In this document: positions 2,477 to 18,432 of the stretch, piece by piece
How the letters are laid out: each line of letters begins with the position of its first letter
Numbering within the stretch: position 1 is the first letter of the stretch
Assembly (NCBI GenBank): GCA_027067015.1
Contig: JAMOMS010000250.1
Span: 1 to 25,893, forward strand
DNA: 25,893 nt
Direction: 5' to 3'
Source of the DNA: Campylobacterales bacterium
GTDB lineage: Bacteria; Campylobacterota; Campylobacteria; Campylobacterales; Hydrogenimonadaceae
The notes under the pieces: generated by a model
Seen by the model: only the letters and a program-made list of their open reading frames with translations
What the model was told of the DNA's origin: nothing
Databases searched by the model: none
Program-made: the position numbers and the translations under genes

Positions 2477-2500
2477 CCGAACGTGTATTTTCGTGTTCGG
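2477..2500 (+). promoter_or_regulatory. Leader hairpin touching the ribosome binding site of hyfB
   Basis: CCGAACGTG (2477-2485) pairs with CGTGTTCGG (2492-2500) through nine pairs, two of them G-U, around the loop TATTTT. The last two bases belong to the GGAG (2499-2502) that serves the ATG at 2513. The fold could modulate translation; that role is inferred. Confidence 0.35.
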
Positions 2501-2512
2501 AGTTTACTCGTG

Positions 2513-4411
2513 ATGACCCATTTTTTCCAGTTCGACACCCTTTCGCTCCTCTTTGCGGGGCTGATCGTGCTCGGTAGCGTGCCTAACCTTTTCTACTCCC
2601 GGGGCTACATGAGCCACATTTCACGTCCCTGGCACTACCGCATCCACTACGCCGCGTTCATCCTTTCGATGCTGGGGGTGGTGACGGCCGGAAGCGCCCT
2701 GAGCTTTCTGCTCTTTTGGGAGCTCATGAGCCTCACCAGCTGGCAGCTGATCCTTACCGAGGCGGAGAAAGAGCCCGAGACGACGCTGAGAGCGGCGCGT
2801 TTTTATTTCTTTATGACCCATTTCGGTTTCGTCTTTTTGCTGCTCTTTTTTCTCATCGTCACCCGGGGCGATTTGGAGGCAGGTTTCGCGACAATGCAAG
2901 GTATTGCCCACGCCTTTGCCTACCCGACGCTGCTCTTTTTCCTGCTGCTGCTCGGTTTCTTTTCCAAGGCGGGGGCGGTGCCGCTGCATGTCTGGCTCCC
3001 CTACGCCCACCCCGCGGCTCCCAGTCCCGTCTCGGCGCTCATGAGCGGCGTGATGCTCAAAGTCGCCATCTACGGGATCTTCCGCTTTTTCCTCACGGTG
3101 CTCTACCCCTGGCCATTGGAGTGGGGGGTGCTGGTGCTGGTGATCGGGGCGATGAGCGCTCTGATCGGCGTGCTTTACGCCCTAAGCGAACATGACATCA
3201 AGGCGCTACTGGCCAACCACTCCATCGAAAACATCGGCATCATTCTCATCGGTTTTGGGATGGGGATGATCTTTGACGCTTTGAAACTGCCGGTGCTTAG
3301 CGCCTTTGCCTTCACCGCCGCGCTCTTTCACACCTTCAACCACATGAGTTTCAAGTCGCTCCTTTTCATGGGGGCGGGCAGTGTCCTGCACGAGACCCAC
3401 ACCAAAAACATCGAAGCCTACGGCGGACTCATCAAAAGTATGCCGGTGACGGCGTTGACCTTTCTGCTCGCCTCCGTCTCCATCTCCGCCCTGCCGCCGA
3501 CCAACGGCTTTTTGAGCGAGTGGATGACCTTTCAGGCGATGCTGGGCTCCAGCCACATCGACAACATGTCGCTCAAACTTGCGATCCCCTTCGCCATCTT
3601 CGCCCTGGCGCTGACGGCGGGGCTGGCCGTCGCCTGCTTTGTCAAGGCGTTTGGCATCACCTTTCTGGGGCTGCACCGCAGCGCCAACGCCCGCCACGCC
3701 AGAGAGGTCAACGGCATGATGCGCGCGGGCATGATGCTCATGGCGGGCGTCGTGCTCGCTTTGATGCTCTTCGCCCCCTGGTTCATCGGCCGCTTCGGGG
3801 CGGCGCTGGCCGCGCTGGGTCGCCGGGACGTGACGCCTCTGATCTTTCCCGACGGCATTTGGCAGATGCACTCGGTGGCGATCCACGGCGGGGTGGTCTC
3901 GCCCCTGCTGCTGACCCTGGCCCTGCTGGCGGTGACGGGGGCGCTCTGGTTCGGGATGCGGCTGTTGGGGGTCAGGGAGCGTCTGCACCGCACCTGGGCC
4001 TGCGGCTACCGCACCTCCGCGCGCACCCAGTATTCGGCCACCGGATTCGCCGGGCCGATCCGCCGTTTCTTCGAGTGGCTCTACCGCCCCGAAGAGCATC
4101 TGGAGAAAGAGACCCTCGCCGGCCACGCCACCAAGTTCGACCGCTCCCGCTACGCGGTGCATGTGACGCCGCTTTTTGAAAAGTCGCTTTACGACGGCGC
4201 GGCGCGGGCGGCCAACTTCGTCAGCTACTGGGTTTATCGTCTCGCCCATTTCGAGCAGACCCGCTACGCCGCGATGATCTTCAACCTGATGCTGCTGGTG
4301 CTCTTTAGCTACCGGATCTTCGCCCACGAGTTCAGCTGGGCCACCTTCGCCCTGGAGTCGGTGGTGATGATCGTCTCGATCAAAGTGCTGATTATCGGAG
4401 AGAAACGATGA
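2513..4411 (+). CDS. hyfB: Hydrogenase-4 component B-like antiporter subunit (Ehr complex)
   Basis: Membrane subunit of the HyfB/HycC/NuoL family, thought to move protons or sodium ions through the membrane arm. The chosen ATG at 2513 gives 632 residues and has GGAG 10 bases upstream; a GTG at 2483 is in frame but lies within a leader hairpin and lacks a good ribosome site. About a dozen or more membrane helices are visible. Hallmark ion-path residues are kept: Glu70 in LLFWELM, Lys152 in FFSKAGAVPLHVWLP, Lys183 in SGVMLK, and the HDIKALLANHSIENIG segment. Compared with E. coli HyfB the protein starts at the helix FQFDTLSLLF, so about 70 N-terminal residues (roughly two helices) are absent. 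It overlaps the next gene by 4 bases. First gene of a six-gene operon. Family assignment is firm; transported ion unknown. Confidence 0.9.
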   Translation: MTHFFQFDTLSLLFAGLIVLGSVPNLFYSRGYMSHISRPWHYRIHYAAFILSMLGVVTAGSALSFLLFWELMSLTSWQLILTEAEKEPETTLRAARFYFFMTHFGFVFLLLFFLIVTRGDLEAGFATMQGIAHAFAYPTLLFFLLLLGFFSKAGAVPLHVWLPYAHPAAPSPVSALMSGVMLKVAIYGIFRFFLTVLYPWPLEWGVLVLVIGAMSALIGVLYALSEHDIKALLANHSIENIGIILIGFGMGMIFDALKLPVLSAFAFTAALFHTFNHMSFKSLLFMGAGSVLHETHTKNIEAYGGLIKSMPVTALTFLLASVSISALPPTNGFLSEWMTFQAMLGSSHIDNMSLKLAIPFAIFALALTAGLAVACFVKAFGITFLGLHRSANARHAREVNGMMRAGMMLMAGVVLALMLFAPWFIGRFGAALAALGRRDVTPLIFPDGIWQMHSVAIHGGVVSPLLLTLALLAVTGALWFGMRLLGVRERLHRTWACGYRTSARTQYSATGFAGPIRRFFEWLYRPEEHLEKETLAGHATKFDRSRYAVHVTPLFEKSLYDGAARAANFVSYWVYRLAHFEQTRYAAMIFNLMLLVLFSYRIFAHEFSWATFALESVVMIVSIKVLIIGEKR

Positions 4412-5328
4412 GCCTCTATCTGTTGACTGTCGCCGTGTTGTTGCTGATCGCCCCGCTGTTGCTGGGGGTGATCAAGGCGCTGAAGATGTGGCTGCTCTTC
4501 AAGCGTCCCCTTTCGCTCCTCCAGGGCTACCGCGATGTCGCCAAGCTTCTGCACAAAGAGAATGTTGTCAGCGAAGAGGCCAGCCTCATCACCCGCGTCG
4601 CCCCGTTCCTGATCCTCTCGCCCCTGCTCATCGTCCTCTTTTTCCTACCGCCCGCTGTTCAGGGGGCGTGGTATGTCAGCTTCGTTGATGCCTTCACTCT
4701 CACGGGGCTCATGGCGCTTTCGACCTTTTTCCTGATGCTGTTGGGGCTTGACAGCGCCAGCAGTTTCGGGGGGATCGGCGCCAGCCGCGAAGCTTTCATC
4801 GCCGCCCTGGCCGAACCGGCGATGGTGCTGACGATCTTCGCCGTCTCCATGATGGCCGGGGATCTGGGGGTGGGCCAGGCGGGGGTCAACCTGGCGAGCC
4901 GCTTCCCCGAAAAGCATATGGCCAGCTATCTCTTCGCCGCCATCAGTTTCTTTATCCTGCTGATCGCCGAAAACGGCCGTATCCCGGTGGACAACCCCGA
5001 AACCCACCTGGAACTGACGATGGTGCATGAGGCGATGATCCTCGACATCGGCGGGGTCTGGCTGGCCATCGTCGAGACCGCGGCGGCGGTGAAGTTCGTC
5101 ATCTTCGCCTCGCTGTTTGCTTCGCTCTTTCTTCCCTTCGGTTACGGCCTGGCCTGGCCTCTGGCCCTGGCCCTCTTTGTGGGCAAGCTCTTTGGGGTGG
5201 CCCTGGCCGTGGCGCTGGTGGAGGTCAACACCGCCAAACTGCGCCTGTTTAAAGTCCCTAACCTGCTGGGCATCGCCATCGTCTTTGCCTTTTTGTCACT
5301 GATTACCTTTTACGTACTGGGAGCCTGA
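4408..5328 (+). CDS. hyfC: NuoH/HyfC-like membrane subunit (Ehr complex)
   Basis: A 306-residue integral membrane protein of the complex I subunit 1 / HycD-HyfC family, which anchors the soluble electron-transfer arm and links it to the ion-moving subunits. Family signatures are clear: GASREAFIAALAEP on a loop at about residue 123-136 and AENGRIPVDNPETHLEL at about residue 190-206, with acidic residues of the coupling channel kept, followed by HEAMILD. About eight membrane helices are visible and the length is normal for HyfC. The ATG overlaps the hyfB-like stop (ATGA), implying translational coupling, and the next gene starts one base after its stop. Nothing is missing from this subunit, so the membrane arm looks functional. 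Confidence 0.92.
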   Translation: MSLYLLTVAVLLLIAPLLLGVIKALKMWLLFKRPLSLLQGYRDVAKLLHKENVVSEEASLITRVAPFLILSPLLIVLFFLPPAVQGAWYVSFVDAFTLTGLMALSTFFLMLLGLDSASSFGGIGASREAFIAALAEPAMVLTIFAVSMMAGDLGVGQAGVNLASRFPEKHMASYLFAAISFFILLIAENGRIPVDNPETHLELTMVHEAMILDIGGVWLAIVETAAAVKFVIFASLFASLFLPFGYGLAWPLALALFVGKLFGVALAVALVEVNTAKLRLFKVPNLLGIAIVFAFLSLITFYVLGA

Positions 5329-5329
5329 C

Positions 5330-5941
5330 ATGGTCGATCTGTTAATCGGCATCTTTCTCGCCACACTCATTACTGCGCTTTTTACCGCGCGCCTCTATCG
5401 TCTGCTGATGTGGTACAGCCTCAACTCCCTGTCGCTGGGCCTGCTGGCGCTTACCATCGGCCGTGCCCAGCACGACGGGGCGATGATCATCAGCGGCCTC
5501 ATCACCCTCCTGCTCAAAGCCGGGGCGATTCCCTGGATCCTCAAGCGCCTGAGCCAGCGTTTCGGCCTGGTGCGTCAGATCACCCCCAACATCCGCATCC
5601 AGTACGCCATCATGCTGGTGCCGGCGATTCTGGTCTTTACCTTCTACCTGGCCGAGCCCATCAGCCATATGGTCGAGGGCAACGCCAACTACGTCGCCAT
5701 CAGCATCTCGTCGCTCTTTTTAGCACTCCTGCTGATGATGGAGCATAACAACATCGCCCCCAAGATCGTGGGATTTCTGAGCATGGAGAACGCCCTGTTT
5801 CTGCTGGGGACCACCGCGACGGGCGGGATGCCGATGCTGGTGGAGCTGGGGATCTTCTTCGATCTGCTGATGGCCATCGTCGTCATCAACCTTCTGATGC
5901 GGCGTGAAGAGATGGAAAACAGCGGGGAGGCGGGGGCATGA
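5330..5941 (+). CDS. hyfE: HyfE/NuoK-like membrane subunit (Ehr complex)
   Basis: A 203-residue, very hydrophobic protein with about six membrane helices and a short charged C-terminus. Position, length (E. coli HyfE has 216 residues) and pattern fit the HyfE family, whose C-terminal half resembles NuoK. Segments such as LLLKAGAIPWILKRL and LLLMMEHNNIAPKIVGFLSMENALFLLG are typical; the Glu of MMEHNN and of SMENALF sit inside helices where NuoK carries its ion-path glutamates. The ATG follows the preceding stop by one base and the gene overlaps the next by 4 bases. A standalone NuoK would be about 100 residues, so this is the longer hydrogenase-type version. Confidence 0.87.
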   Translation: MVDLLIGIFLATLITALFTARLYRLLMWYSLNSLSLGLLALTIGRAQHDGAMIISGLITLLLKAGAIPWILKRLSQRFGLVRQITPNIRIQYAIMLVPAILVFTFYLAEPISHMVEGNANYVAISISSLFLALLLMMEHNNIAPKIVGFLSMENALFLLGTTATGGMPMLVELGIFFDLLMAIVVINLLMRREEMENSGEAGA

Positions 5942-7353
5942 TGGTCGCGCTTTTGCTGTTGCCGGCGCTGGTGATGTTCGCCGCCAGCTTTTTGCACACG
6001 CCCCGGGCCCGCCGTCTGCTGCCTATAAGCTCCGTGGCGATCCTGATTCCGGTGGGGATACTCTTTCTCCACGCCAAACCCTGGAGCATCTGGGGCGACT
6101 ACCTGGTGGCCGACGATCTCAACAGCTATGTATTGCTGGTCTCTTCGGTCGTCGGGATCGGCGTGACGCTGGCATTGCTGACCCTGGATCGGCACGTGGC
6201 GATCACCGAAGTATCCACCCGCCGTTTTTACCGTTTTTTCGCGCTCTTTTGGATCGGTCTGATCCTCTCGATCCTGGCCAACCACATGGGGATCTATTGG
6301 ATCGGCCTGGAGATGGCGACCCTCTCGACGGTCTACATGATCAAGACCAACCGAAGCGCCGCGGCGCACAAAGAGGCGTGGAACTACATGATCGTCGGGG
6401 CCATCGCCATTTCGCTGGTGCTTTTTGGCATCATCCTCATCTACGCTTCGGCCAAGCCGATCCTGGGGGAGGAGGCGATGCTGTTTGATGCCCTGCTGGC
6501 CAAAGCCCACGCCATCCCCTCGCCCTTTCTTTTTGAGATGGGCTTTGCGCTGGCGACGGTGGGGATGTTTGTCAAGATGGGCTTTTTCCCCATGAACCTC
6601 TGGCTGGCCAACATCGAACGCGCCTCCTTCTACCCCGTGGCGGCGCTTTTTAGCGGGATTTTGGAGAGTGCGGTGATCGTGGGATTTTTCCGCTTCTCCA
6701 CCGTCGCCCGGGCGGTCAACGAGGCGCATCTGGTGGGCTTTGTGGTCGCCTATACGCTGCTGACGATCTTCATCGTCGCCTTTCTCATCTACCGGGCCAA
6801 GGATTTCATGCGGCTCTTTTCGCTTTCGGGGATCGAGCACATGGCGCTGATCGCGCTCTTCTGGGTCGGGGGCGGCACCTTCGCGGCACTGCTGCACTTC
6901 GGGGCCCACGCCTTTTTGAAACCGGCGCTTTTTCTCTCCACCGGGGTACTGGAGTCCAGCGGCCGCTACCACATCGCCGGGGCGCTCAAAGGTTACCGGG
7001 GTGTCAGGGGCAAGCTCTTCTATTTCCTGGTGAGCCTCTTTCTTCTGGCCATCGTCTCCCTGCCTCCCAGCCCCATGTTCTTCTCCGAGCTCTACGGCTT
7101 CGGGGCGATGGTGGACGCGGCGGAGTCGAGCCACCACCTGCTGGCAATGATCGGCGCGACACTGCTGCTGCTGATTTTGCTTTCGGTCATCTTCTACCGC
7201 TTCGTGGCGATCTATCAAAGCATGAAGTACGAGGGGGAAGCGGCCGAGCGGCCGGTCTACGCCGCGGAGGTGGCGGCTTTGGCGATCTTCGCCGTCGGCC
7301 TGCTGGCGCTGATCACCCCGGCGGCCATGCACTTTCTCAGGAGTATCGCATGA
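5938..7353 (+). CDS. hyfF: HyfF-like antiporter subunit (Ehr complex)
   Basis: A 471-residue membrane protein of the Mrp-antiporter/NuoN-like family, the second ion-moving subunit of the set. It has about 13-14 helices. Glu in IGLEMATLSTVYMIK, Lys in FVKMGFFPMNLWL, SGIEHMALIALF and HAFLKPALF correspond to conserved ion-path elements. Some family features have drifted: the Pro-rich loop that reads HPAAPSPVSALMSG in the hyfB-like protein reads ERASFYPVAALFSG here. Two methionine codons open the gene; the first overlaps the hyfE-like stop (ATGA), and the second (5941) is equally possible. Its stop overlaps the ATG of the large subunit. No third antiporter (HyfD) is present in the operon. Confidence 0.88.
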   Translation: MMVALLLLPALVMFAASFLHTPRARRLLPISSVAILIPVGILFLHAKPWSIWGDYLVADDLNSYVLLVSSVVGIGVTLALLTLDRHVAITEVSTRRFYRFFALFWIGLILSILANHMGIYWIGLEMATLSTVYMIKTNRSAAAHKEAWNYMIVGAIAISLVLFGIILIYASAKPILGEEAMLFDALLAKAHAIPSPFLFEMGFALATVGMFVKMGFFPMNLWLANIERASFYPVAALFSGILESAVIVGFFRFSTVARAVNEAHLVGFVVAYTLLTIFIVAFLIYRAKDFMRLFSLSGIEHMALIALFWVGGGTFAALLHFGAHAFLKPALFLSTGVLESSGRYHIAGALKGYRGVRGKLFYFLVSLFLLAIVSLPPSPMFFSELYGFGAMVDAAESSHHLLAMIGATLLLLILLSVIFYRFVAIYQSMKYEGEAAERPVYAAEVAALAIFAVGLLALITPAAMHFLRSIA

Positions 7354-8726
7354 AACGGCTCATTGCACGCTACGCCGTCGAACGATCCGACGCTTTGGAC
7401 GTGGTGACGGTGTTTGATACCGAAACCCTCCATGAACGGTGCGATCCGGCCGATCCGGTCGTACACTCCATCGCCCCGAAACATCCGGCGGCGATCTGGT
7501 TCGAGCGCAAGATGGCGGACGATTTTGGCCTTCGCATCGAGGGGGCTTTCGACCGCCGCCCCCTACTGCACCACGAGCGATGGCCCCAGGGGATTCACCC
7601 AATGCGCAAAGCCTTCGACGCCAAAACAGAGCTGGACTACGCCGATTTTCGTCCCTACCGTTACGAGGCGATTGGGGGCGACGGGGTCTTCGAGGTGGCG
7701 GTGGGGCCGATCCACGCCGGCATCATCGAACCGGGTCACTTCCACTTCTCCCAGGCGGGGGAGGATATGCTCCACCAGGAGGTGCGCCACTTCTACAAGT
7801 ACCGGGGTATCGAGAAGATGCTGGAGGGCAGGAGTCCCGAAGAGGCCGCGCCCGTCATCGCGCGAATCAGCGGCAACGAGAGTATCGCCGCCCAGATCGC
7901 CTGGCGCGACATTCTGACGCAGGCGTCGGTGGGGGAGCTTCCCGACTTCGTGCGGGCCCGCGACGCTTTGCTGTTGGAGCTGGAGCGGGTGATCCACCAC
8001 CTGACCGATCTGGGCTTCATCGCCAACGACGCGGGCTTCGCCGCCGCCCTGGCCTGGGGCTCCAAAAGCGCCGAGGAGGCCCGCCGCCTCATGGTGCGCC
8101 TCACCGGCCATCGCTTCGGTTTCGACGCTATTTTCAAGGATTTGGAAGGGTTCGAGACCGTGCCCGTGCGGGAGTGGATCGCCGGGATGGAGGAGGAGAT
8201 CGCCTGGTTTGGCGACTGGATCACCGACATCCCGTCGCTGTGGGACCGTTTCGATACCACCGGCATTCTGCGGCCCGAAAAGGCGCGCAAATACGCCGCC
8301 GTCGGCGTCGTGGCCCGGGCGTCGGGAGTGCCGCTGGATGTGCGGGACACCCCCTGGTACCGGGAACGGGGCTACGAAATGGTTACCGAAGAGGCGGGAG
8401 ACGTGGCCGCGCGCTTCAGGGTGCGGCTGCGGGAGCTTGCCGTGAGCCTGCGGCTGATGCGCACACTGCTGGAGGAGGCGCAGAGCGCGGGTATGCCGAT
8501 CCCGACCGTTCGGGACGGGGAGTACACGGCTTTTGTCGAAAGTTCCCTGGGCGAGCTTTTCATGACGGCGATCTTCGAAGAGGGGCGCATCGTGCGCTTT
8601 TTCATGCGCGATCCGAGCTTCGTCAACTGGCAGGCGTTGCACCTGATGATGCCGGGCAATATCATCGCGGATTTCCCGCTGATCAACAAAAGCTGCGATC
8701 TGAGCTATGCGGGGAACGACCTGTGA
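7350..8726 (+). CDS. hyfG: Large subunit of an Ehr-type complex: HyfG-like, Ni-Fe cysteine ligands lost
   Basis: A 458-residue soluble subunit combining a short NuoC-like N-terminal domain (WFERKMADDFGLRIEGAFD, residues 50-68) with a NuoD/HycE-like domain starting at VGPIHAGIIEPGHFHFS (about 118-134) and YRGIEKMLEG (151-160). In hydrogenases the next motif is RVCGICG; here the same place reads RISGNES (172-178), so Cys is Ser174 and Glu177. The C-terminal DPCxxC reads DLSYAG (450-455), so the cysteines are Ser452 and Gly455. Only Cys31 and Cys449 exist. No Ni-Fe centre can be held by the normal four ligands. The protein ends three residues after that motif, without the tail that a maturation protease would cut off. 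It is therefore an Ehr (hydrogenase-related) subunit, perhaps using a quinone-like or unknown site. ATGA overlap with hyfF. Confidence 0.9.
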   Translation: MKRLIARYAVERSDALDVVTVFDTETLHERCDPADPVVHSIAPKHPAAIWFERKMADDFGLRIEGAFDRRPLLHHERWPQGIHPMRKAFDAKTELDYADFRPYRYEAIGGDGVFEVAVGPIHAGIIEPGHFHFSQAGEDMLHQEVRHFYKYRGIEKMLEGRSPEEAAPVIARISGNESIAAQIAWRDILTQASVGELPDFVRARDALLLELERVIHHLTDLGFIANDAGFAAALAWGSKSAEEARRLMVRLTGHRFGFDAIFKDLEGFETVPVREWIAGMEEEIAWFGDWITDIPSLWDRFDTTGILRPEKARKYAAVGVVARASGVPLDVRDTPWYRERGYEMVTEEAGDVAARFRVRLRELAVSLRLMRTLLEEAQSAGMPIPTVRDGEYTAFVESSLGELFMTAIFEEGRIVRFFMRDPSFVNWQALHLMMPGNIIADFPLINKSCDLSYAGNDL

Positions 8727-8738
8727 CGCTTTGCGTCA

Positions 8739-8761
8739 AGTGAAAAACGAAAAGTGAAAAG
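8739..8761 (+). repeat. A-rich GTGAAAA repeat, copy 1
   Basis: Right after the large-subunit gene lies a run of AGTGAAAA units in the gap before the small-subunit gene. A near match, differing by about one substitution and one inserted base, follows amtB2 (12675-12698). No reading frame or hairpin explains it. Confidence 0.5.
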
Positions 8762-8818
8762 TTGGACAATACCACATTCCAATAACCAATTACGCCGCGA
8801 AACGGGCGAGGAGTTTTC

Positions 8819-9337
8819 ATGCTGAGATTCTGGGAAAAACGGGCCAAAACGGGCATTCTGACCGAGCATCCCGAGTTCGATGAGGAGATGGCGAAGATCC
8901 GTCGTGAACTCAAAGAGGCGATCAAAAAGCGTTTCGCCGGTTCACTGGCGATCCGCATGGTCGACGGCGGCAGTTGCAACGCCTGCGAAGCGGAGTGCAA
9001 CGCGCTTTCGAACCCCTACTACGACCTGGAGCGGCTGGGGATCCGCTTCGTCGCCTCGCCCCGGCACGCCGACGTGATGCTGCTCAGCGGCGTGCAGACC
9101 TTTAACATGCTGCTCCATGTGCTCGACTGCTGGGAACAGATCCCTGCTCCCAAGTGGTGCATCACCCTGGGTGATTGCCCCGCGATGGCCGCGCCGTTTG
9201 AAAAAACCTTCGCCGTCAAAGGCCCCGCCGCTGACTACCTTCCCGTGGCGCATCACATCCCCGGCTGTCCTCCAAGTCCAAAAATTATTCTACAAGGTTT
9301 ATTGAATTTTGTAAAAAAGATCCATATAAATGATTAA
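8819..9337 (+). CDS. hyfI: HyfI/NuoB-like iron-sulphur small subunit (Ehr complex)
   Basis: A 172-residue protein of the NuoB/HycG/HyfI family, which carries the [4Fe-4S] cluster next to the large subunit and docks on the NuoH-like membrane protein. Cluster cysteines are visible: Cys53 and Cys56 (GGSCNAC), Cys120 (TLGDC) and Cys150 (IPGCPPSP). The stretch ASPRHADVMLLSG is typical of the family. The first 40 residues form a charged helical extension. GAGGAG at 8808-8813 fixes the ATG. It is separated from the large-subunit gene by 92 bases, unlike the overlaps elsewhere in the operon. The last 55 bases are sharply AT-rich compared with the rest of the gene. So electron transfer remains possible although the Ni-Fe ligands are gone. 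Confidence 0.92.
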   Translation: MLRFWEKRAKTGILTEHPEFDEEMAKIRRELKEAIKKRFAGSLAIRMVDGGSCNACEAECNALSNPYYDLERLGIRFVASPRHADVMLLSGVQTFNMLLHVLDCWEQIPAPKWCITLGDCPAMAAPFEKTFAVKGPAADYLPVAHHIPGCPPSPKIILQGLLNFVKKIHIND

Positions 9338-9428: not shown

Positions 9429-10679
9429 ATGAAAAGATGGTTGTTTGTTTTGGCCATGTTGCCGGCCGTGGCCTTTGCCGGTGAGCTTAACGGCGGCGAT
9501 ACGGCGTGGATGCTGGTGGCCACCGCCTTTGTCATGCTGATGACCCCGGCGGGTCTGGCGCTCTACTACGGCGGTCTGACCCGCAGCAAGAACGTGCTCA
9601 ACACCATGGGCATGAGTCTGGCCTCTTTTGCCGTGGGCACCCTGGTATGGGTGGTGATCGGTTATTCCATCGCTTTTGGCGACGGGGATCTGATAGGAAC
9701 GGGCAAGGTACTGCTTGCCGGCATCAACGCCGATTCGCTCAGCGGTACCATTCCCGAACTGCTCTTCGTGGCCTTTCAGGGGACTTTCGCGGCCATTGCC
9801 GTGGCCATTGCCAGCGGGTCGATGATCGAGCGGGTGAAATTCTCTACTTTCGTGATCTTTTCGGCCCTTTGGATCGTGGCGGTCTACGCACCTATTACCC
9901 ATTGGGCCTGGGGCGGCGGCGAGACGCTCAACTTCGACGAGATTGACTTCGCCGGCGGTACGGTGGTGCATATCAACGCCGGTGTGGCCGGCTTTGTGGT
10001 GGCGATGATTCTGGGAGCCCGCAAAGATTACCAGCGCACCGCCATCAAGCCTTTCAGCCCCATTCTGGTGGTGTTGGGCGCCATGCTCTTGTGGTTTGGG
10101 TGGTTCGGTTTCAACGCCGGTAGCGAAGTGGCGGCCGACGCAACGGCGGCTTCGGCCTTTCTGGTGACCAACGTGGCGGCCTCTTTGGGCGTGATCGGCT
10201 GGGTGGCCGGCGAGTGGCTGCTCTATAAAAAACCGACCCTGGTCGGCGGCGCTTCCGGCGCGGTGTCTGGCCTGGTGGCCATTACCCCCGCTTCCGGCAC
10301 CGCCGGTGTGGGCGGCGCCCTGATCATTGGCCTGGTGGGCGGATTTTTGGGCTTTCTGGCGGTAGCCAAGATCAAAAAGGCGTTCAAAGTGGACGATTCG
10401 TTGGACGCTTTCTGGGTACACGGTTTGGTAGGTATCTGGGGCTCTATCGCCACGGCTATCTTTATAGCCGATTACGCTGTGCCCGAAAACTACCATATGG
10501 TTTCCCAGCTTGGCAAACAGTTGATGGCGGTGGGGCTGACCATTGTCTATAGCGCCGTCATGACGGCGGTGATCTACTTTGTCTCTTCGGCGATAACCGG
10601 TGGCGGACGGGTGGATGAAGAGACCGAGACCATGGGACTGGATGAGGCGGTCCACGGCGAGCGCGGCCTGAATATGTAA
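9429..10679 (+). CDS. amtB: Ammonium transporter AmtB (copy 1, with signal peptide)
   Basis: Trimeric inner-membrane channel that takes up ammonium. The protein has 416 residues. A signal peptide (MKRWLFVLAMLPAVAFA) precedes the first of about eleven membrane helices, as in E. coli AmtB. The pore twin histidines are His181 (GGTVVHINAG) and His331 (FWVHGLVGIWGS), 150 residues apart as in E. coli (168 and 318). HWAWGGG and WFGWFGFNAGS are family signatures. The cytosolic tail that PII proteins bind is present (MGLDEAVHGERGLNM at the end). The ATG has GAGGAG at 9418-9423. The gene is followed, after 313 bases, by a PII gene; in many bacteria the two touch, so the long gap is unusual. It resembles amtB2 only moderately. 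Confidence 0.95.
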   Translation: MKRWLFVLAMLPAVAFAGELNGGDTAWMLVATAFVMLMTPAGLALYYGGLTRSKNVLNTMGMSLASFAVGTLVWVVIGYSIAFGDGDLIGTGKVLLAGINADSLSGTIPELLFVAFQGTFAAIAVAIASGSMIERVKFSTFVIFSALWIVAVYAPITHWAWGGGETLNFDEIDFAGGTVVHINAGVAGFVVAMILGARKDYQRTAIKPFSPILVVLGAMLLWFGWFGFNAGSEVAADATAASAFLVTNVAASLGVIGWVAGEWLLYKKPTLVGGASGAVSGLVAITPASGTAGVGGALIIGLVGGFLGFLAVAKIKKAFKVDDSLDAFWVHGLVGIWGSIATAIFIADYAVPENYHMVSQLGKQLMAVGLTIVYSAVMTAVIYFVSSAITGGGRVDEETETMGLDEAVHGERGLNM

Positions 10680-10797
10680 AAGTCCTGCGGCTCTTGCAGG
10701 GAGCGGCGAAAAGAACAAGGGAACGGCTTCTCTTTTTCCGTCGCTCACGCCGATGGCGATGTGGCGAAGCCACCGCCAGACGGCAACCGCCGAAGCA

Positions 10798-10852
10798 AAC
10801 CCAGCGTTAGCGTAGGTAAGCGGGCTTGGCCCGTTTACCGTATTTTTAACAA
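10798..10852 (+). repeat. Structured repeat upstream of glnK1, copy 1
   Basis: The unit begins AACCCAGCGTTAGCG and contains a hairpin at 10815-10839: GGTAA, G, CGGGC, loop TTG, GCCCG, T, TTACC. It is followed by GTATTTTTAAC, so it looks like a terminator or attenuator. Copy 2 is identical apart from one T. Confidence 0.8.
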
Positions 10853-10891
10853 ATGGAGCGGAGCGGAGGCTTTGCCTATGCGAAGCGACAA

Positions 10892-11331
<440 letters not shown>

Positions 11332-11363
11332 GCCTGATTGGTTAAAAAATAGACACAACTTTT

Positions 11364-11400
11364 GCCGGACTTTTCAAACGGGTCCGGCCTATTGATTAAT
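11364..11400 (+). terminator. Possible terminator after glnK1
   Basis: GCCGGAC (11364-11370) pairs with GTCCGGC (11382-11388) around an 11-base loop, with a T-rich stretch (TTAATTTTTATT) starting about eight bases later. The T-run is not immediately adjacent, so termination is plausible, not certain. Confidence 0.4.
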
Positions 11401-11442
11401 TTTTATTCATCCGCCCCCTTTTCCCCTTTACCGTAGCCGCAC

Positions 11443-11448
11443 TATAAT
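11443..11448 (+). promoter_or_regulatory. -10 box for amtB2
   Basis: A perfect TATAAT lies 43 bases upstream of the amtB2 ATG, downstream of the putative glnK1 terminator. The -35 region shows no TTGACA-like sequence, as is usual in this phylum. It suggests that amtB2 is transcribed on its own. Confidence 0.5.
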
Positions 11449-11491
11449 TGCGTTTGACTCTATACATACAAACCTATGAAGGAGCGCAACA

Positions 11492-12670
11492 ATGCAGGCT
11501 GGTGACTTTTCCTACGTGATCGACACCCTGTTTTTGCTTTTTTCCATGACCCTCATCATCTTTATGGTGCCGGGGTTTGCCATGCTGGAGGCGGGGATTG
11601 TCAGAACCAAGAACGTCAGCGCCGTTTTGACGGTCAATACCATGATCTACGCCGTGGCCTCTTTGGTCTTTTTGCTGGTGGGGTATCAGCTCGCTTTCGG
11701 GAGCTGGGAGAACGACAGTGTTAGCAAGTGGGCCGCCTTTTTGTTTCAGATGGCTTTTGTGGGCAAAACCGTCAATATCATGAGCGGCGGGGTGAGTGAA
11801 CGGACGCGGATCGTGCCGCTGATGCTCTTTACCGTGGTGATGGCGGCGGTGATCTACCCGTTGGCGGTTAACTGGACCTGGGGCGCCAATATGCTAAAAA
11901 ACACTTTCCTGGATATCAGCGCTATGCATGACCTGGCGGGCTCTACCGTCATTCACTCCACCGGCGCCTGGGCCCTGTTGGCGGCCATTTTGATTATCGG
12001 TCCCCGCAAGGGGCGCTACGTCAACGGCAAAGTACGGGTGATTCCGGCTTCCAACATTCCCCTGGTGACCCTGGGGGCTTTGGTGCTGTGGATCGGGTGG
12101 TTCGGCTTTAACGGCGGATCGGTCGGTTCCATCGCCTCCAAAGAGAACGCCGATACGGTGGCGTTGACCATTATGAACACCAATACCGCCGGGTTGGCGG
12201 GGGCGATTGTGGCGGCGCTGATTGTCTACTGGCAGTATCGTAAATTTGATATTACCATGATCCTTAACGGCGCGTTGGGCGGTCTGGTGGCCGTCACCGC
12301 CGGCGCAGATCTGTTTGATATTTACACCCCAATTCTTGTGGGATTTGTCGGCGGGGCGCTGGTGGTGTTTGCCGTACCCTTTTTTGACCGGCTCCGTATT
12401 GACGATCCGGTGGGGGCATTGTCGGTTCACCTGGTCAACGGCGTGTGGGGGACGCTGGCCGTGGGGCTCTTTGCCGAAGGCGTCTCTTTCTGGGCGCAAC
12501 TTAAAGGGGTTTTGGTGATCGGTATCTACGCCTTTGTGGTATCATATTTGGTCATTTACGCCATCAACAAAGTGTTGCCTTTCCGTGCGGATGACGAGGC
12601 GCAGATGGAGGGGATGGATGTGAGTGAGTGCGGCCTGGAGGCCTACCCCGAATTCAAACGGGCCTTTTGA
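11492..12670 (+). CDS. amtB: Ammonium transporter (copy 2, no signal peptide)
   Basis: A second Amt-family channel of 392 residues, starting directly in the first membrane helix (DTLFLLFSMTLIIFMVPGFA). Pore histidines are His155 (AGSTVIHSTGAW) and His313 (LSVHLVNGVWGT), 158 residues apart. WIGWFGFNGGS is the family signature. It differs from amtB1 in lacking a signal peptide, in spacing of the twin histidines, and in the C-terminal tail (ending YPEFKRAF, with no HGE motif), so it is a different Amt subtype and not a recent duplicate. AAGGAGCG precedes the ATG. A PII gene follows after a 241-base leader. The two transporters may differ in affinity or in PII control; this is inference. Confidence 0.94.
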   Translation: MQAGDFSYVIDTLFLLFSMTLIIFMVPGFAMLEAGIVRTKNVSAVLTVNTMIYAVASLVFLLVGYQLAFGSWENDSVSKWAAFLFQMAFVGKTVNIMSGGVSERTRIVPLMLFTVVMAAVIYPLAVNWTWGANMLKNTFLDISAMHDLAGSTVIHSTGAWALLAAILIIGPRKGRYVNGKVRVIPASNIPLVTLGALVLWIGWFGFNGGSVGSIASKENADTVALTIMNTNTAGLAGAIVAALIVYWQYRKFDITMILNGALGGLVAVTAGADLFDIYTPILVGFVGGALVVFAVPFFDRLRIDDPVGALSVHLVNGVWGTLAVGLFAEGVSFWAQLKGVLVIGIYAFVVSYLVIYAINKVLPFRADDEAQMEGMDVSECGLEAYPEFKRAF

Positions 12671-12674
12671 GTTC

Positions 12675-12708
12675 AGTGAAAAATGAAAGAGTGAAAAGTG
12701 AAAAATTC
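12675..12708 (+). repeat. A-rich GTGAAAA repeat, copy 2
   Basis: Starts four bases after the amtB2 stop. AGTGAAAAATGAAAGAGTG and a further GAAAAGTGAAAAATTC match the tract after the hyfG-like gene (8739-8761) almost base for base. Confidence 0.5.
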
Positions 12709-12711
12709 AGG

Positions 12712-12735
12712 AGGCGCCTGGCGGCGCTTTCAGTT
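12712..12735 (+). terminator. Possible terminator after amtB2
   Basis: GCGCC (12714-12718) pairs with GGCGC (12723-12727) around TGGC, extended by two weaker pairs, then TTTCAGTTTT. The stem is short and the T-run broken. Confidence 0.4.
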
Positions 12736-12750
12736 TTGAATTGATGATGA

Positions 12751-12780
12751 GGTGAGTGGGCTTTGCCCGAATATCGTATG
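12751..12780 (+). repeat. Degenerate copy of the glnK-leader hairpin
   Basis: Aligns with 12853-12882 (GGTGAG, a GGGC stem arm, TTT loop, GCCCGA, then CGTATG) but with several changes that weaken the outer stem. It sits 102 bases before the intact copy, much as copy 1 precedes copy 2 in front of glnK1. Confidence 0.6.
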
Positions 12781-12801
12781 ATTCGGGAGCGAAGCGGTCA
12801 G

Positions 12802-13885
<1,084 letters not shown>

Positions 13886-13948: not shown

Positions 13949-14959
13949 ATGTACATAACCCTTGATTCCCCCTTGGATATGCACCTGCACCTGCGTGACG
14001 GCGAAATGCTCAAAACCGTGGCGCCCTTGAGCGCGAAAGATTTTGCGGGCGGGCTTGTTATGCCCAACCTGGTTCCTCCCGTCACCGACCTTGCCATGGT
14101 TCGCGCCTATCGGCAAAGGATTGAAGAGGCGATGGGTGAGGCGGTTTTCAAGCCCTATATGACGCTTTTTTTCAAAGCCGACTACTCCCCGGCCTTTTTG
14201 GAGGAGGCCAGGGAGGAGATTTTGGCGATCAAACTCTACCCCGCCGGTATTACCACCAACTCCGAAGGGGGGGTGAAGGGATTTGACCTGGCCACGCTCT
14301 CTCCGGTGTTGGGGGTCATGAGCGATCTGGGCATTCCGCTGTGCGTGCACGGGGAGAGCGACGGGTTCGTGATGGACAGGGAGAGTGAGTTTATTCCCGT
14401 CTACGAGCGGCTGGCCGGGGCCTTTCCCGATCTTAAGATCGTGATGGAGCATATCACCACCGCCAAAGCGTTGGAGGCGCTGGAACGGCACGAAAACCTT
14501 TACGCCACCATTACCCTGCACCATCTTTACATCACCCTGGATGAGGTGGCGGGCGGGTTACTGCGTCCGCATCTGTTTTGTAAGCCCATCGCCAAGCGCC
14601 CCGAAGATCGTACCGCCCTGCGCCAAGCGGCTTTCAAGGCCCACCCGAAGGTGATGTTCGGCTCCGACTCGGCGCCGCACCCCAGGGAAGCCAAGGAGGC
14701 GCCCGGTTGCGCGGCGGGCGTCTTTACCGCGCCCGTGGCCCTGCCGGCGTTGGCGCAGATATTTGAAGAGCACGGTGCGTTGGAGAATTTGCAAGCCTTT
14801 GTCAGCGATAACGCCCGCCGTATTTACGGTATAAAACCGCCGGCTAAAAAGGTGACACTGCAAAAAAGCCCCATCCGCGTGCCCGCCGATTACGGTGAGG
14901 CGGTGGTGCCGATGTTCGCGGGCGAAGAGCTGGCTTGGAGCGTGGTGCGTGCCGGCTAA
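13949..14959 (+). CDS. pyrC: Dihydroorotase, class II
   Basis: Zinc amidohydrolase that closes N-carbamoyl-aspartate to dihydroorotate, third step of pyrimidine synthesis. All metal ligands are visible in this 336-residue protein: His12 and His14 (DMHLHLRD), the Lys that is carboxylated, Lys95 (AIKLYPAG), His134 (CVHGE), His168 (MEHITT) and Asp240 (FGSDSAPH). Length and the short loop structure fit the class II (E. coli PyrC) type. It is the first gene after the promoter at 13912 and its end overlaps the response-regulator start, so pyrimidine synthesis and the signalling genes downstream probably share a transcript. That linkage may be one of convenience. Identity is secure. Confidence 0.95.
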
Positions 14960-15605
14960 AGTCCTTCTGCTCGAGGATGACCGGCTCTTTGGCGAGACGC
15001 TGGTTGACTTTTTAGAAGGAGAGGGGTATGCGGTGGAGCACTTTCTCTCCGCCCGCCCCGCCGCCGAAAGAATTTACGAGAAGGGAGGGTTCGATCTCTA
15101 TCTGTTGGATGTGAACGTGCCCGACATGAACGGGTTTGACCTTTTGCGTCAGCTCAGAGAGAGCGGAGACGAGACCCCCGCCATCTACATCACCTCGGCA
15201 CGTGACAAGGCGGCACTGGCGGAAGGGTTTGGCAGTGGGGCGGATGATTATATGAAAAAACCGATTGACCTGGATGAGCTGATTTTGCGCATGGAAGCGC
15301 ACCTGAGACGATTTGAGAAACCGGGTCGGGTGGAAGTGGGGGATTACCGTTTTGATATGGAGCGGCTGGTGCTTTATAAAGAGGATGAGCCGGTCAAACT
15401 TCCCAAAAAGATGGCCGAATTGCTGGGCCTTTTGCTCAAACACCGGGGAGAGGTGGTGAGCACCGAAGAGATTTTGTATGAACTCTACGGCGATGAGCGT
15501 CCCGCCAGCGGGGTGTTGCGGGTTTATATTAACAAGCTCAAACAGCTTTTTGGCAAAGAAGCCATTCAAAACATCCGGGGGGTCGGGTACTGTTTTGAAG
15601 CGTAG
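14949..15605 (+). CDS. OmpR/PhoB-family response regulator
   Basis: A 218-residue DNA-binding regulator. The receiver domain (residues 3-115) has the acidic pair Asp10/Asp11, phospho-acceptor Asp54 ([14 protein letters not shown]), Ser83 and Lys104 (YMKKP). A winged-helix domain follows (about 125-217) with the ending [13 protein letters not shown] and [10 protein letters not shown]. The start is taken as GTG at 14949 because the receiver begins directly there ([11 protein letters not shown]) and GGAG lies at 14937-14940; a longer in-frame start at 14895 would add residues that are just pyrC read in another frame. It overlaps pyrC by 11 bases and the kinase gene by 11 bases. The target genes are unknown. 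Confidence 0.93.
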
Positions 15606-16467
15606 ACAGACTCTTTTGGTTTTGACCTTCTATATGCTCACCTTCGTCGCCATGGCGGGGTTGATGTGGGTGGTGTTTGAGAATTTCGGTTACAGCAACG
15701 AGAATTTTGTTGTGGTACTTGCACTGCTACTGCCGCTTTCGGCCCTCTTTGGCTACATTCTCTCCAAGGCGGCGCTTGAGCCGCTCTTTATGACCAACGA
15801 CATGCTTGACAGATTGCTCAAAGACACCCTCCATGAGCTCAACATTCCCCTCTCAACCGTCCTGGCCAACGTGGCCATGCTCAAACGGGGTGAGCGCGAT
15901 GCCAAACGCCTGGTGAGGCTGGAGCGGATCGAAAAGGCCGCCGAACATCTGGGAGAGCTCTATGAGGATCTGGACTACTTTATCAAAAAAGAGATCGGTT
16001 CTGTTGAAAAAGAGACCTTTGCCCTGCATGAGGTGGTTGAGCGCAGTATACAAAAGGTTGACGGGATAAAAGGGGATATTTCGATACAATACTCTCCAAA
16101 AAAGCTCTATGTGCAAGCGGATGTGAGAGGGTGTCGCAAGTGTGTGGACAACCTTCTTTCCAACGCCGTCAAGTACAACCGGCCCGGCGGTTGGGTGCGC
16201 GTGGGTTTTGAGGGGGATTGGTTGGTAATTGAAGACAGCGGGATCGGGATGGATGAGGAGACCCTTTTTCATATTTTTGACCGTTACTACCAAAATGACC
16301 TGAGCGCTTCCGGGTACGGCATAGGCTTGCATATTGCCAAAACCTTTTGCGACGAGCACGGCATAAAGATCAAGATCGCCTCACGCAAGGGTAAGGGGAC
16401 GACCTTCCGGCTCAATTTCGGGCCGGTGGTTGTACCAAACACGCAGAAGAAGGAAATAACGGCATGA
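15595..16467 (+). CDS. Membrane sensor histidine kinase with minimal periplasmic part
   Basis: A 290-residue kinase paired with the preceding regulator. Two membrane helices (about 7-27 and 38-57) are joined by only about ten residues, so no periplasmic sensor domain exists. The phospho-acceptor is His80 in TLHELNIPLS, the H-box. The catalytic domain shows the N box (CVDNLLSNAVKYN), G1 (EDSGIGM), F box (IFDRYYQ) and G2 (GYGIGLHIAK). The start is taken as TTG at 15595, overlapping the regulator stop; no ATG lies before the first helix and earlier frame belongs to the regulator gene. A GG-rich ribosome site lies about a dozen bases upstream. Such kinases often sense through the membrane or a partner protein; ExbB is encoded next, overlapping by 4 bases. 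Confidence 0.9.
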   Translation: MKRRQTLLVLTFYMLTFVAMAGLMWVVFENFGYSNENFVVVLALLLPLSALFGYILSKAALEPLFMTNDMLDRLLKDTLHELNIPLSTVLANVAMLKRGERDAKRLVRLERIEKAAEHLGELYEDLDYFIKKEIGSVEKETFALHEVVERSIQKVDGIKGDISIQYSPKKLYVQADVRGCRKCVDNLLSNAVKYNRPGGWVRVGFEGDWLVIEDSGIGMDEETLFHIFDRYYQNDLSASGYGIGLHIAKTFCDEHGIKIKIASRKGKGTTFRLNFGPVVVPNTQKKEITA

Positions 16468-16907
16468 ACACCTCGCAAATGGCGGATTGGGTCGATTACG
16501 GGTTTATCGGGCTTTTGGGCCTGATGAGCGTGATTGCCCTCTGGCTGATTTTGGAACGCTACTTCTACTATCGCCATATCGATCTGCACAGCTTCCGCGA
16601 AAAGGAGGAGTTGGAGATCGCTTTGGGCGAGAATATGACCATGATCGCCTCCATCGGGGCCAACGCCCCGTTTATCGGTCTACTTGGAACGGTGATGGGC
16701 ATTATGGTGACCTTTATTACCATCGGCCAGAGCGGCCTGGTGGAGACCAAGCAGATTATGGTGGGGTTGGCGTTGGCGCTCAAAACCACCGCCGGGGGGA
16801 TTTTGGTGGCCATCCCCGTTATCTGGTTTTACAACCTCCTGGGACGCAAGGCCGAGATTCTGACGGCCCGCTGGGAGATGATGAAACGGCGGGGTGAAAC
16901 AGGGTGA
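16464..16907 (+). CDS. exbB: ExbB/TolQ-type proton channel protein
   Basis: A 147-residue MotA/TolQ/ExbB family protein, the pentameric part of the motor that turns proton flow into force on TonB or TolA. Three membrane helices are visible (about 12-30, 66-88, 102-127). The conserved helix-2 and helix-3 segments read APFIGLLGTVMGIMVTF and ALKTTAGGILVAIPVIWF, including the Thr pair lining the channel. It is shorter than E. coli ExbB (244 residues), lacking much of the cytoplasmic loop, as is common in Campylobacterota. Its ATG overlaps the kinase stop (ATGA). ExbD follows after ten bases, but no TonB, TolA or receptor gene is in the operon, so its partner is unknown. Confidence 0.9.
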   Translation: MNTSQMADWVDYGFIGLLGLMSVIALWLILERYFYYRHIDLHSFREKEELEIALGENMTMIASIGANAPFIGLLGTVMGIMVTFITIGQSGLVETKQIMVGLALALKTTAGGILVAIPVIWFYNLLGRKAEILTARWEMMKRRGETG

Positions 16908-16917
16908 CGGAGTGGGC

Positions 16918-17295
16918 GTGAAACTCAAAAAATTTGATCAGATCAACGTCTTGCCCTTTATTGACATTATGCTTGTTTTGCTGGTTATTGTGTTAACCAG
17001 CGCCTCGTTTGTGAGCAAAGGGACCATTCCGGTCAAACTGCCCGAAGCCGAAGGCACGACGCAGACGCCTTTGAAGATGACCCGCATTGTCATCGACGCG
17101 AAAGGCCGTCTCTATTTTGAGGGGAAACGGGTCGATTTCGGGGCGCTTAAAGAGGCGGTGTCGCGGCTTGATCCAAAAAAATCGCCCATTCTGATCCAAA
17201 GTGACGCCCGCAGTCAGTTTCAAAATTTCGTCAAGGTGATCGACCTGCTTAAGAGGCGGGGATTTGAGAACGTAAGTATTGAGACCAAACGGTGA
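16918..17295 (+). CDS. exbD: ExbD/TolR-type proton channel protein
   Basis: A 125-residue partner of ExbB. A short basic cytoplasmic start (MKLKKFDQINVLPF) leads into one membrane helix bearing the essential proton-carrying Asp16 (PFIDIMLVLLVIVL), then a periplasmic domain that is expected to bind peptidoglycan or the energy-transducing protein. The GTG at 16918 has GGAG five bases away (16909-16912); other GTG codons at 16894 and 16912 are in frame, but the first overlaps exbB and would place extra residues before the family's normal start. The following PilZ gene begins ten bases after the stop. Confidence 0.9.
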   Translation: MKLKKFDQINVLPFIDIMLVLLVIVLTSASFVSKGTIPVKLPEAEGTTQTPLKMTRIVIDAKGRLYFEGKRVDFGALKEAVSRLDPKKSPILIQSDARSQFQNFVKVIDLLKRRGFENVSIETKR

Positions 17296-17304
17296 GAGAA
17301 AAAG

Positions 17305-18432
17305 ATGTTTGTAAGCAAAGAGTGTAAACATTATGAGACCCTTCGCCAAAGGCGGGGGGAGATGGAGACATTTAGGGGCTTTTTCCCCCGCCATAAAGAG
17401 CACTTCGCGACCCAATTTGTGCAGGAGATTCGCAAGCAGGGGCGCTTGTCGGGCGTCAAGGTGCGGGTAATATTGCCGCTGGTTTTGCAGGTGTACCGCT
17501 ATTTGAGCGATTTTGACGCCGCCTTGCCCGAGACGGTGCTTAAAAACCTCTCCAAACTCAAAACCCTGGATGTCGAACCCGACCGCCTGATGCGAAAGCT
17601 TTTGACGTCGCTTTCATTGCGCTATCTGGATGATTACAAGGATGATCCCGAGCTCCTAGGCCACCTCTCTTTGCTGACCTTCTACTTTCAGGCGGTGGTT
17701 GATTGCGTGGAGAAAAAGATTCAGGGCGTAGAAAGTCGTCCCATCGGCTATGCGCCCATGCGCCGAGAAGAGATAGAGAGTGCCCTACACAAAGGGGCGA
17801 CGGTGCGGCTTTTTAGTATCTACAAAGGGATACCCATTCGCTTTAAGGGGGTTGTCAAGCGCGTTGAAGAGGGCAGAGCGGAGTTGGTGGTACCCAAAGA
17901 GAAGGGGGTCGTGGCCGAGTGGGAGGGCCAGCTTGTCAAATATGACGACGAAAAAAACGACAAACGGGTCGTGGCGATGCGGGTGCGCCGGGTCGGCTAT
18001 TCGCACAAGCACGCCTTTATTGAGGTGGACGGCTTTTCATGGACCGAAAACTTCCTCTCCCGCCGTAAATCGGTGCGGGTGATGATTGACAAACCCATCA
18101 AAGCCACCATCAAGTCGATCAACAAGCAGTTGGAGTTGGATGTGATCGATCTGTCGGTTCACGGCATCTGCCTGGAGGGCTCTATCGCGGGGGGATTGCC
18201 CTCGTCTGAGCACGTAGAGGTGGTGGTGCCCATTCCGCAGGAGGAGGGCAAAACCAGAAACCTGCGGATGCGAGGCGTTTTGCGTTATGTCTCTCAGCAT
18301 GACGGTCTGCGGCGTCGGTACCATATTTTGCTCCATCACGACCCGCAAAAGGAGCAGATCATCGCCTCTTTTGTGGCCAGGGAGGAGATGCGACTGCTAC
18401 GGGAGATCAAAGAGACGGCGGCAAACAAATGA
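17305..18432 (+). CDS. PilZ-domain protein (probable c-di-GMP receptor)
   Basis: A 375-residue cytoplasmic protein with no membrane helix. A C-terminal PilZ domain (about 250-365) keeps both c-di-GMP binding motifs: RxxxR as Arg254-Arg258 (RRKSVR) and DxSxxG as Asp282-Ser284-Gly287 (DLSVHG). Residues 160-245 form a beta-rich region resembling the YcgR-type PilZN domain, which accompanies PilZ in flagellar brakes. Residues 1-150 are helical, with no family I recognise. So it should bind c-di-GMP and pass the signal to an unknown partner. Being cotranscribed with a two-component system and ExbB/ExbD hints at control of an envelope process or motility; this is inferred. It overlaps the next gene by 4 bases (ATGA). 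Confidence 0.82.
   Translation: MFVSKECKHYETLRQRRGEMETFRGFFPRHKEHFATQFVQEIRKQGRLSGVKVRVILPLVLQVYRYLSDFDAALPETVLKNLSKLKTLDVEPDRLMRKLLTSLSLRYLDDYKDDPELLGHLSLLTFYFQAVVDCVEKKIQGVESRPIGYAPMRREEIESALHKGATVRLFSIYKGIPIRFKGVVKRVEEGRAELVVPKEKGVVAEWEGQLVKYDDEKNDKRVVAMRVRRVGYSHKHAFIEVDGFSWTENFLSRRKSVRVMIDKPIKATIKSINKQLELDVIDLSVHGICLEGSIAGGLPSSEHVEVVVPIPQEEGKTRNLRMRGVLRYVSQHDGLRRRYHILLHHDPQKEQIIASFVAREEMRLLREIKETAANK

Follow-up and report, generated by a model that had tools for sequence, protein, structure and literature searches.

An Ehr operon of a Campylobacterales bacterium whose large subunit lacks the Ni-Fe ligand cysteines

We have analysed a 25,893-nucleotide stretch of DNA (the window) from a Campylobacterales bacterium of the Hydrogenimonadaceae (GenBank assembly GCA_027067015.1, contig JAMOMS010000250.1). 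It carries six intact genes in a hyfBCEFGI-like operon (positions 2483-9337, order B-C-E-F-G-I) which, judged from its sequence, is an energy-converting hydrogenase-related (Ehr) complex and not a hydrogenase, all four Ni-Fe ligand cysteines of the large subunit being replaced. Ehr complexes are already known. Within the parts of the literature that we searched, two findings appear to be new, namely a Campylobacterota pocket without the canopy arginine and relatives that have repeatedly lost the last known metal ligands but not the pump residues.

Background

An open question about complex I is how the reaction in the cytoplasmic arm drives the pumping of ions at a distance, in the membrane. 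Ehr complexes were reportedly treated by Marreiros et al. (2013). They have been described in Nitrospira, Sulfobacillus and the Candidate Phyla Radiation (PMC6349859), and the literature identifies the cysteine-less form as Ehr, with a function given as unknown or suspected (PMC6349859, PMC12342949, PMC10284858, PMC4378227, PMC7304191, PMC10432482). One review places a Sulfurimonas 'Hyc', which vent relatives also have, among the group IV hydrogenases (PMC4584964); the Sulfurimonas homologues found here, which may be the same gene, lack the cysteines. The 'Hyc' of vent Campylobacterota and of Dehalococcoides is counted among the hydrogenases in several sources (PMC4584964, PMC5102406, PMC8516407, PMC2930330, PMC6113397).

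Results

The large subunit gene and the positions that carry the argument are as follows:

7350..8726, +, HyfG/HycE-like large subunit (NuoC-D fusion) without Ni-Fe ligands; open reading frame (ORF) of 458 amino acids
7863..7883, +, RISGNES (residues 172-178) where HycE has RVCGICG; HMMER and HycE/HyfG/NuoCD alignments
8697..8714, +, DLSYAG (residues 450-455) where HycE has DPCYSC; three residues from the C-terminus
7728..7730, +, E127, equivalent of HycE E193 in the b1-b2 loop; alignment
7995..7997, +, H216, at the canopy residue HycE S283; alignment
8028..8030, +, D227; NuoD also has Asp here, HycE has Phe and the four-cysteine relatives have Gly
8547..8549, +, L400, at the canopy arginine site (HycE R478); alignment

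E. coli HycE (7z0s_E) was aligned with window residues 30-456 by HMMER (E 7.6e-44), and the register C241 to S174, C244 to E177, C531 to S452 and C534 to G455 was identical in an alignment with HycE, HyfG and NuoCD. The pairing of RISGNES with RVCGICG and of DLSYAG with DPCxxC, proposed in an earlier sequence-only reading of this DNA, is thus borne out, as is its claim that all four ligand cysteines are replaced, and the protein has neither of the group 4 [NiFe] motifs RxCGxC and DPCxxC. S174, S452 and G455 are present in all of the 120 best homologues listed, and residue 177 is Glu in 116 of them and Ala in four. Conservation of the replacements in these 120 rules out chance or a sequencing slip, which the sequence-only reading had already thought unlikely. 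The same reading had remarked that the protein lacks a maturation tail. It does end in SYAGNDL with nothing beyond, but this is not diagnostic: all 13 four-cysteine relatives among the 80 named genome loci (described below) end in CxDR, likewise without a tail, so its absence is no evidence of inactivity and that argument was dropped.

Relatives were sought on plasmids by tblastn (112 records, all under 60% identity, of which seven were opened) and in genome contigs, where the best 80 of at least 579 relatives, spread over many bacterial phyla and several archaea, were taken. Together with the window these make 88 loci, picked by similarity and two peptide patterns, and shares among them are not frequencies. 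Ni-Fe cysteines are missing from 75 of the 88 (74 have none of the four and L096 has one), and 13 carry all four. Wherever the available stretch was long enough, gene order is nearly constant, being B-C-E-F-G-I or I-B-C-E-F-G, and the seven opened plasmid loci hold the same six genes. One of them, the Rhodococcus plasmid locus L035 (3014-10302), has the order I-B-C-E-F-G, which we take to resemble that of Mycobacterium tuberculosis Rv0082-Rv0087, annotated as formate hydrogenlyase. No relatives were found in the scan of viral contigs, and tblastn against a phage collection returned five records, none over 29% identity. That the operon is a degenerating, functionless remnant is very improbable; nothing was found in favour of this beyond the loss of the site, but the six genes are intact and nearly fixed in order, the C-terminal SYAGNDL is identical in 115 of the 120 best homologues listed, and reading frames and motifs are conserved across phyla.

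Phylogenetic placement was examined with two trees. In a quick tree of 95 rows, for which only four of eight extra complex I or group 4 rows passed the length filter (the rest had probably been read on the wrong strand), the four-cysteine clade was nested inside the cysteine-less rows. A careful tree, from which the cysteine columns were removed, kept 78 rows and omitted 17 (NuoCD, three complex I or group 4 rows, one fragment and 12 near-duplicates). In it a single change of the Ni-Fe cysteine state suffices, the four-cysteine rows, 12 in number (81/76), form the sister group of the cysteine-less rows (90/53), and the 75-row clade, with the four-cysteine rows as sister, stands at 100/100. Because the quick tree nested the four-cysteine clade inside, the direction of cysteine change rests mainly on the careful tree. 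The basal order is not firm, the sister placement being modestly supported and the basal forks weak. A separate clade of Campylobacterota (100/100) contains the window, which groups with rows of lineages for which Ehr has been published, namely Nitrospira moscoviensis (L080), Moraniibacteriota (L065/L082) and Saganbacteria (L078/L087); these rows may be the published sequences. The sequence-only reading had named a close relative with both the four cysteines and a maturation tail as evidence against itself. Close relatives with the cysteines do exist, as the sister clade, but they have no tail and stand apart from the clade of the window.

Like published Ehr, the window has a six-gene module and a HycE/NuoD-like large subunit without Ni-Fe cysteines and groups with N. 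moscoviensis, and antiporter-like, NuoH-like and NuoB-like subunits are encoded in one operon. The assignment to Ehr made in the sequence-only reading is therefore supported by sequence, gene order and tree.

To compare the pocket, rows were aligned for 24 Campylobacterota (23 genomes, L012 and L052 coming from one), 51 other Ehr, nine Ehr without the iron-sulphur (FeS) cluster cysteines described below (FeS-less), 12 Dehalococcoidia and 13 four-cysteine relatives. The canopy site is Ile or Leu in all 24 Campylobacterota rows, window included, and Arg in 51/51, 9/9, 12/12 and 13/13 of the other groups, respectively; among the 120 best homologues listed it is Ile in 68, Leu in 49, Met in two and Pro in one. 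This arginine is described as conserved across hydrogenases and as Lys or Arg in complex I, and HycE E193 as a proton-transfer glutamate (PMC9474812). Unlike other Ehr, in which the HycE S283 site is Asn in 49 of 51 rows, Campylobacterota mostly have H216 (21/24), together with E177 (22/24), C449 (20/24) and D450 (24/24). Relative to four-cysteine relatives, Ehr is marked by C174S, A/V176D or N, C177T/S/E, G227D, S421D, C452S, C455G and R458L, and N446, K447, S448, Y453 and H130 are common to both. Campylobacterota Ehr thus carries its own remodelled pocket without the canopy arginine, which goes beyond what is known. In a predicted model of the large subunit, residues 122-127 have a predicted local distance difference test (pLDDT) value below 50.

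A cryptic hydrogenase with other Ni-Fe ligands would fit the overall fold and the match of E127 to HycE. We regard it as highly unlikely, given that no cysteine occupies any of the four ligand positions in the 120 best homologues listed, that the canopy arginine is gone, and that one genome with Ehr (G028, 99% complete) has neither HypD nor a PF00374 match. G012 has neither as well but is 79% complete, and G028 alone serves as the case. HypD does not separate the groups, being present in nine of 12 four-cysteine genomes and six of eight FeS-less genomes.

In the window genome itself, pieces of ordinary NiFe hydrogenase large subunits (PF00374) lie on G000:C91 and G000:C97. Its lack of HypD was dropped as evidence; with those pieces present, the gap is probably one of assembly (92% complete, 297 contigs).

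The other genes of the operon and the predicted cluster ligands are:

2483..4411, +, HyfB-like antiporter subunit (NuoL/M family); PF00361 4e-53
4408..5328, +, HyfC-like subunit (NuoH family); PF00146 2.6e-29
5330..5941, +, HyfE-like membrane subunit; NF008556 2.5e-14, under the family cut-off
5938..7353, +, HyfF-like antiporter subunit; PF00361 4.2e-20
8819..9337, +, HyfI/NuoB-like small subunit; PF01058 9.9e-21
8975-8986, +, C53 and C56, cysteines for a predicted proximal 4Fe-4S cluster; alignment
9176-9178, +, C120, same cluster; alignment
9266-9268, +, C150, same cluster; alignment

HyfB-like also matched NF005086 (hydrogenase 4 subunit B; 3.6e-171), under the family cut-off, and the Pfam scan gave no match for the HyfE-like subunit (5330..5941). 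The small subunit has a hydrogenase-like CxxC (C53-C56) and not the adjacent CC of NuoB, and the count of ferredoxin motifs found no fused one in it. No HyfA, HyfD, HyfH or NuoI-type gene was seen among the operon ORFs, the rest of the genome not having been searched for a HyfH/HycF-type subunit.

The cluster cysteines are lost in nine of the 72 Ehr loci whose small subunit lies within the stretch (eight have none and one a single Cys), and all 13 four-cysteine loci of the 88 retain them. On the careful tree the loss requires three changes, and a single FeS-less clade is rejected (approximately unbiased test, p-AU 0.0108). The three losses fall in an Allomeiothermus plasmid; in Dehalococcoidales with Methanosarcina and Altiarchaeales metagenome-assembled genomes; and in Patescibacteria with one further metagenome-assembled genome. 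We examined two further samples, of presumed Patescibacteria and of presumed Dehalococcoidia-class genomes. In the first, 12 of 286 genomes matched, giving nine Ehr-type loci in which three or more of the cysteines are missing, two of another type with CCCC and one fragment. In the second, 27 of 197 genomes matched and 20 loci were read (seven matching genomes were not), comprising 13 FeS-less close relatives with D[TAV]DN, two Ehr and three of another type with CCCC, and two with an FeS-less small subunit and a four-cysteine large subunit. The first locus of each sample had already been counted among the 88. The FeS-less large subunits read retain NKS and SY.G and mostly have SGD at 174-176. 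The NuoB fold persists in a predicted model of one FeS-less small subunit (pLDDT 89.9), whose alignment included cysteine-bearing rows. No description of FeS-less Ehr small subunits was found in the parts of the literature searched.

Reductive dehalogenases are carried by nine of the 13 close Dehalococcoidia genomes. We take one genome, G446, to be D. mccartyi 195, and one FeS-less Dehalococcoidia locus is probably the D. mccartyi 'Hyc'. DET1570 has been catalogued as a group 4 HycG (PMC5102406), and Dehalococcoides is described as lacking quinones (PMC10772276). Several lineages, likely including this 'Hyc', which is usually listed as a [NiFe] hydrogenase, are without any of the known metal-ligand cysteines.

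Some FeS-less loci have further features. The Allomeiothermus plasmid (locus L038) has a second, identical copy of the small subunit gene (21491-22360), and the N-terminus of this small subunit has just one cysteine-rich stretch. In the Altiarchaeales locus L095 a second B, C, E, F set follows the module (14586-19291). In L163 (4622-5554, 5478-7814, -) and L164 (7875-8786, 5759-7723, +) the small subunit carries a fused two-cluster ferredoxin-like domain.

The sequence-only reading held that a reaction is coupled to ion transport. In the window, HyfB-like retains the equivalents of E144, K229/K234, K265 and E407; HyfC-like those of E157, D213, E216 and E220, with His at the E218 equivalent; and HyfF-like those of E133 and K217, with K247 replaced by Ser and K395 by Glu (NuoN numbering). 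Across the family, the Glu of transmembrane helix (TM) 5, the Lys of TM7 and the Glu of TM12 of HyfB are present in 62-63 of the 64 rows of FeS-bearing Ehr, and the TM8 Lys is present in 54 of these rows. Each of the 15 FeS-less loci has all four residues. HyfF has the TM5 Glu and TM7 Lys in 72/73 FeS-bearing rows and 17/17 FeS-less loci; its TM8 position is rarely Lys, and its TM12 position is Glu in 71/73 FeS-bearing rows and Glu or Lys (10 and 7, respectively) in FeS-less loci. HyfC has the E157 and E220 equivalents in all rows, and a single row lacks that of D213; the E216 position varies, and the E218 site is His in every Ehr and four-cysteine row. The transport part of the claim is supported by the retained antiporter-like Lys and Glu residues. 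As to whether the reaction is redox or conformational, the FeS-less relatives favour a non-redox one, which is not proof for the window. An extra antiporter-like subunit was also seen, HyfB being duplicated in two Campylobacterota and two Acidobacteriota loci (L048, L181, L089, L119) and HyfF in two Nitrospirota loci and one Limisphaerales locus (L064, L071, L072).

Neighbouring ORFs were obtained with a crude longest-ORF script. A random draw of 150 from 311 near genes, less an antisense ORF of the window and an ORF of L061, gave 148 for scanning. No Pfam family occurred in more than four of the 148, and so no dehydrogenase partner is fixed. In four Patescibacteria-type loci (L065, L082, L091, L100) the module directly follows atpD-atpC, and atpC lies within about 2 kb in six of 13 such loci. 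TrkA/TrkH and/or ClC genes flank the module in L053, L055, L172 and L175 (four of 19 Campylobacterota loci, in two arrangements), and ATP synthase genes adjoin the Methylovirgula plasmid locus. These ion-related associations are suggestive only. In the window, two amtB-like genes with a PII-like gene behind each lie directly 3' of the module (9429-13250), with 91 bases between hyfI and the first amtB. We read these names by eye, as we did gyrA for an upstream minus-strand gene, and all three are presumptive.

Discussion

Our favoured explanation, which we hold at a little below even confidence, is that the Ehr pocket does its work with no transfer of electrons, and that binding of a ligand or proton gates the complex as an ion translocator. 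A cytoplasmic arm of HyfG and HyfI would sit on a membrane arm made of a NuoH-like coupling subunit and two antiporter-like subunits, with the former Ni-Fe cavity serving as a polar site for a ligand or proton. Once this site is occupied or protonated, the b1-b2 loop (E127) would shift, and through HyfC this shift would open ion movement in HyfF and HyfB, translocating protons or some other cation. An ion gradient, or a reaction of the ligand that is not redox chemistry, would supply the driving force, and not electrons passing through the pocket; in the lineage of the window the single 4Fe-4S cluster may be structural or a redox switch. A non-redox pocket is favoured because lineages that lost the cluster would not keep so much of the pocket if its job were to receive electrons.

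Several observations weigh against this explanation. All four cluster cysteines are present in 24/24 Campylobacterota rows and in 63 of 72 Ehr small subunits, and a cluster site kept in this way is usually a sign of electron transfer. Complex I also has the Asp of D227, and there we take it to lie near the quinone site; a quinone-like substrate is possible in quinone-bearing lineages. The FeS-less pocket has exceptions, with GGE (L038) or AGD (L134/L167) at 174-176, Gly in place of D227 in four of nine rows, and Thr at residue 421 in three of nine FeS-less and 12 of 12 Dehalococcoidia rows. Nor is cluster loss confined to Ehr, since two loci (L151/L163 and L154/L164) combine a large subunit that has the four cysteines with a small subunit from which three or more cluster cysteines are gone; L163 and L164 may be Ni-Fe-type sites with a broken wire. 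Finally, ion-related neighbours are absent from 15 of the 19 Campylobacterota loci, some of which have a short flank, and from seven of 13 Patescibacteria-type loci, and the associations were noticed before they were counted.

With the cluster cysteines present in the window and in the other Campylobacterota rows, a redox role is a close rival there. A ferredoxin or flavodoxin would dock on HyfI and pass electrons by way of the 4Fe-4S cluster to an acceptor in the pocket, such as a quinone or a sulphur species, and the energy released would pump ions; we consider this a serious possibility, if somewhat less likely than the favoured explanation. Besides the cluster cysteines and D227, it can draw on the related MBS, which reduces polysulphide at its proximal cluster (PMC7684303). 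It is opposed by the lack of any HyfA/HyfH/NuoI-type ORF in the operon and of a conserved partner gene among the sampled neighbours, by the retention of most of the same pocket in FeS-less relatives, and by I126 and G175 at the positions of His38 and Tyr87 of the complex I quinone site (Nqo4). D227 was rejected as proof of a quinone, as FeS-less Dehalococcoidia keep it.

Alternatively, non-redox chemistry in the pocket, such as hydration of CO2 or a small molecule, possibly at a new metal held by D176/E177, D227, H130 and E127, might drive the pump. The coordinated gain of acidic and polar residues over four-cysteine relatives (S174, D/N176, T/S/E177, D227, D421) would suit this. We find it improbable, with no substrate-linked gene among the 148 sampled neighbours, D227 missing from the FeS-less rows noted above, and Asn at residue 176 in 19 of 24 Campylobacterota rows.

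Known systems differ from the window in several respects. E. coli hydrogenase-3 and -4 (HycE, HyfG) have the Ni-Fe ligands, the maturation tail and the HyfA/HyfD/HyfH genes that it lacks. The four-cysteine six-gene relatives (Selenomonas, Thermincola, Phascolarctobacterium), which we take to be, probably, group 4f, share its module, its NKS and EPGHF motifs and the missing tail, but keep all four cysteines and have G227, S421 and R458; two ferredoxin-like small-subunit motifs were found in eight of the 15 of them read, in a count in which nine rows lacked the anchor motif. Respiratory complex I (NuoD/NuoB) differs in the quinone-site His and Tyr, in CC for CxxC and in its NuoI-type gene. The MBS sulphane sulphur reductase is likewise complex I-like with Ni-Fe ligands lost, but of the four cysteines it retains two, along with three FeS clusters (PMC7684303), whereas the window keeps none of the four (S, E, S, G) and one cluster site.

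Within the complex I superfamily, Ehr as a whole could form an ion-translocating branch without redox chemistry, in which the electron wire was lost stepwise (ferredoxin domain, Ni-Fe site, proximal 4Fe-4S cluster) and a ligand or proton in the old active site drives or gates the machine, a proposal that we offer tentatively. If it is true, nature would offer a relative with the same coupling parts from which electron-transfer centres are missing, and with it coupling could be told apart from redox chemistry and conformational models put to the test. Annotations of 'Hyc' in vent Campylobacterota and in Dehalococcoides would be corrected, and if the likeness to M. tuberculosis Rv0082-Rv0087 also holds, the formate hydrogenlyase annotation there may be wrong as well.

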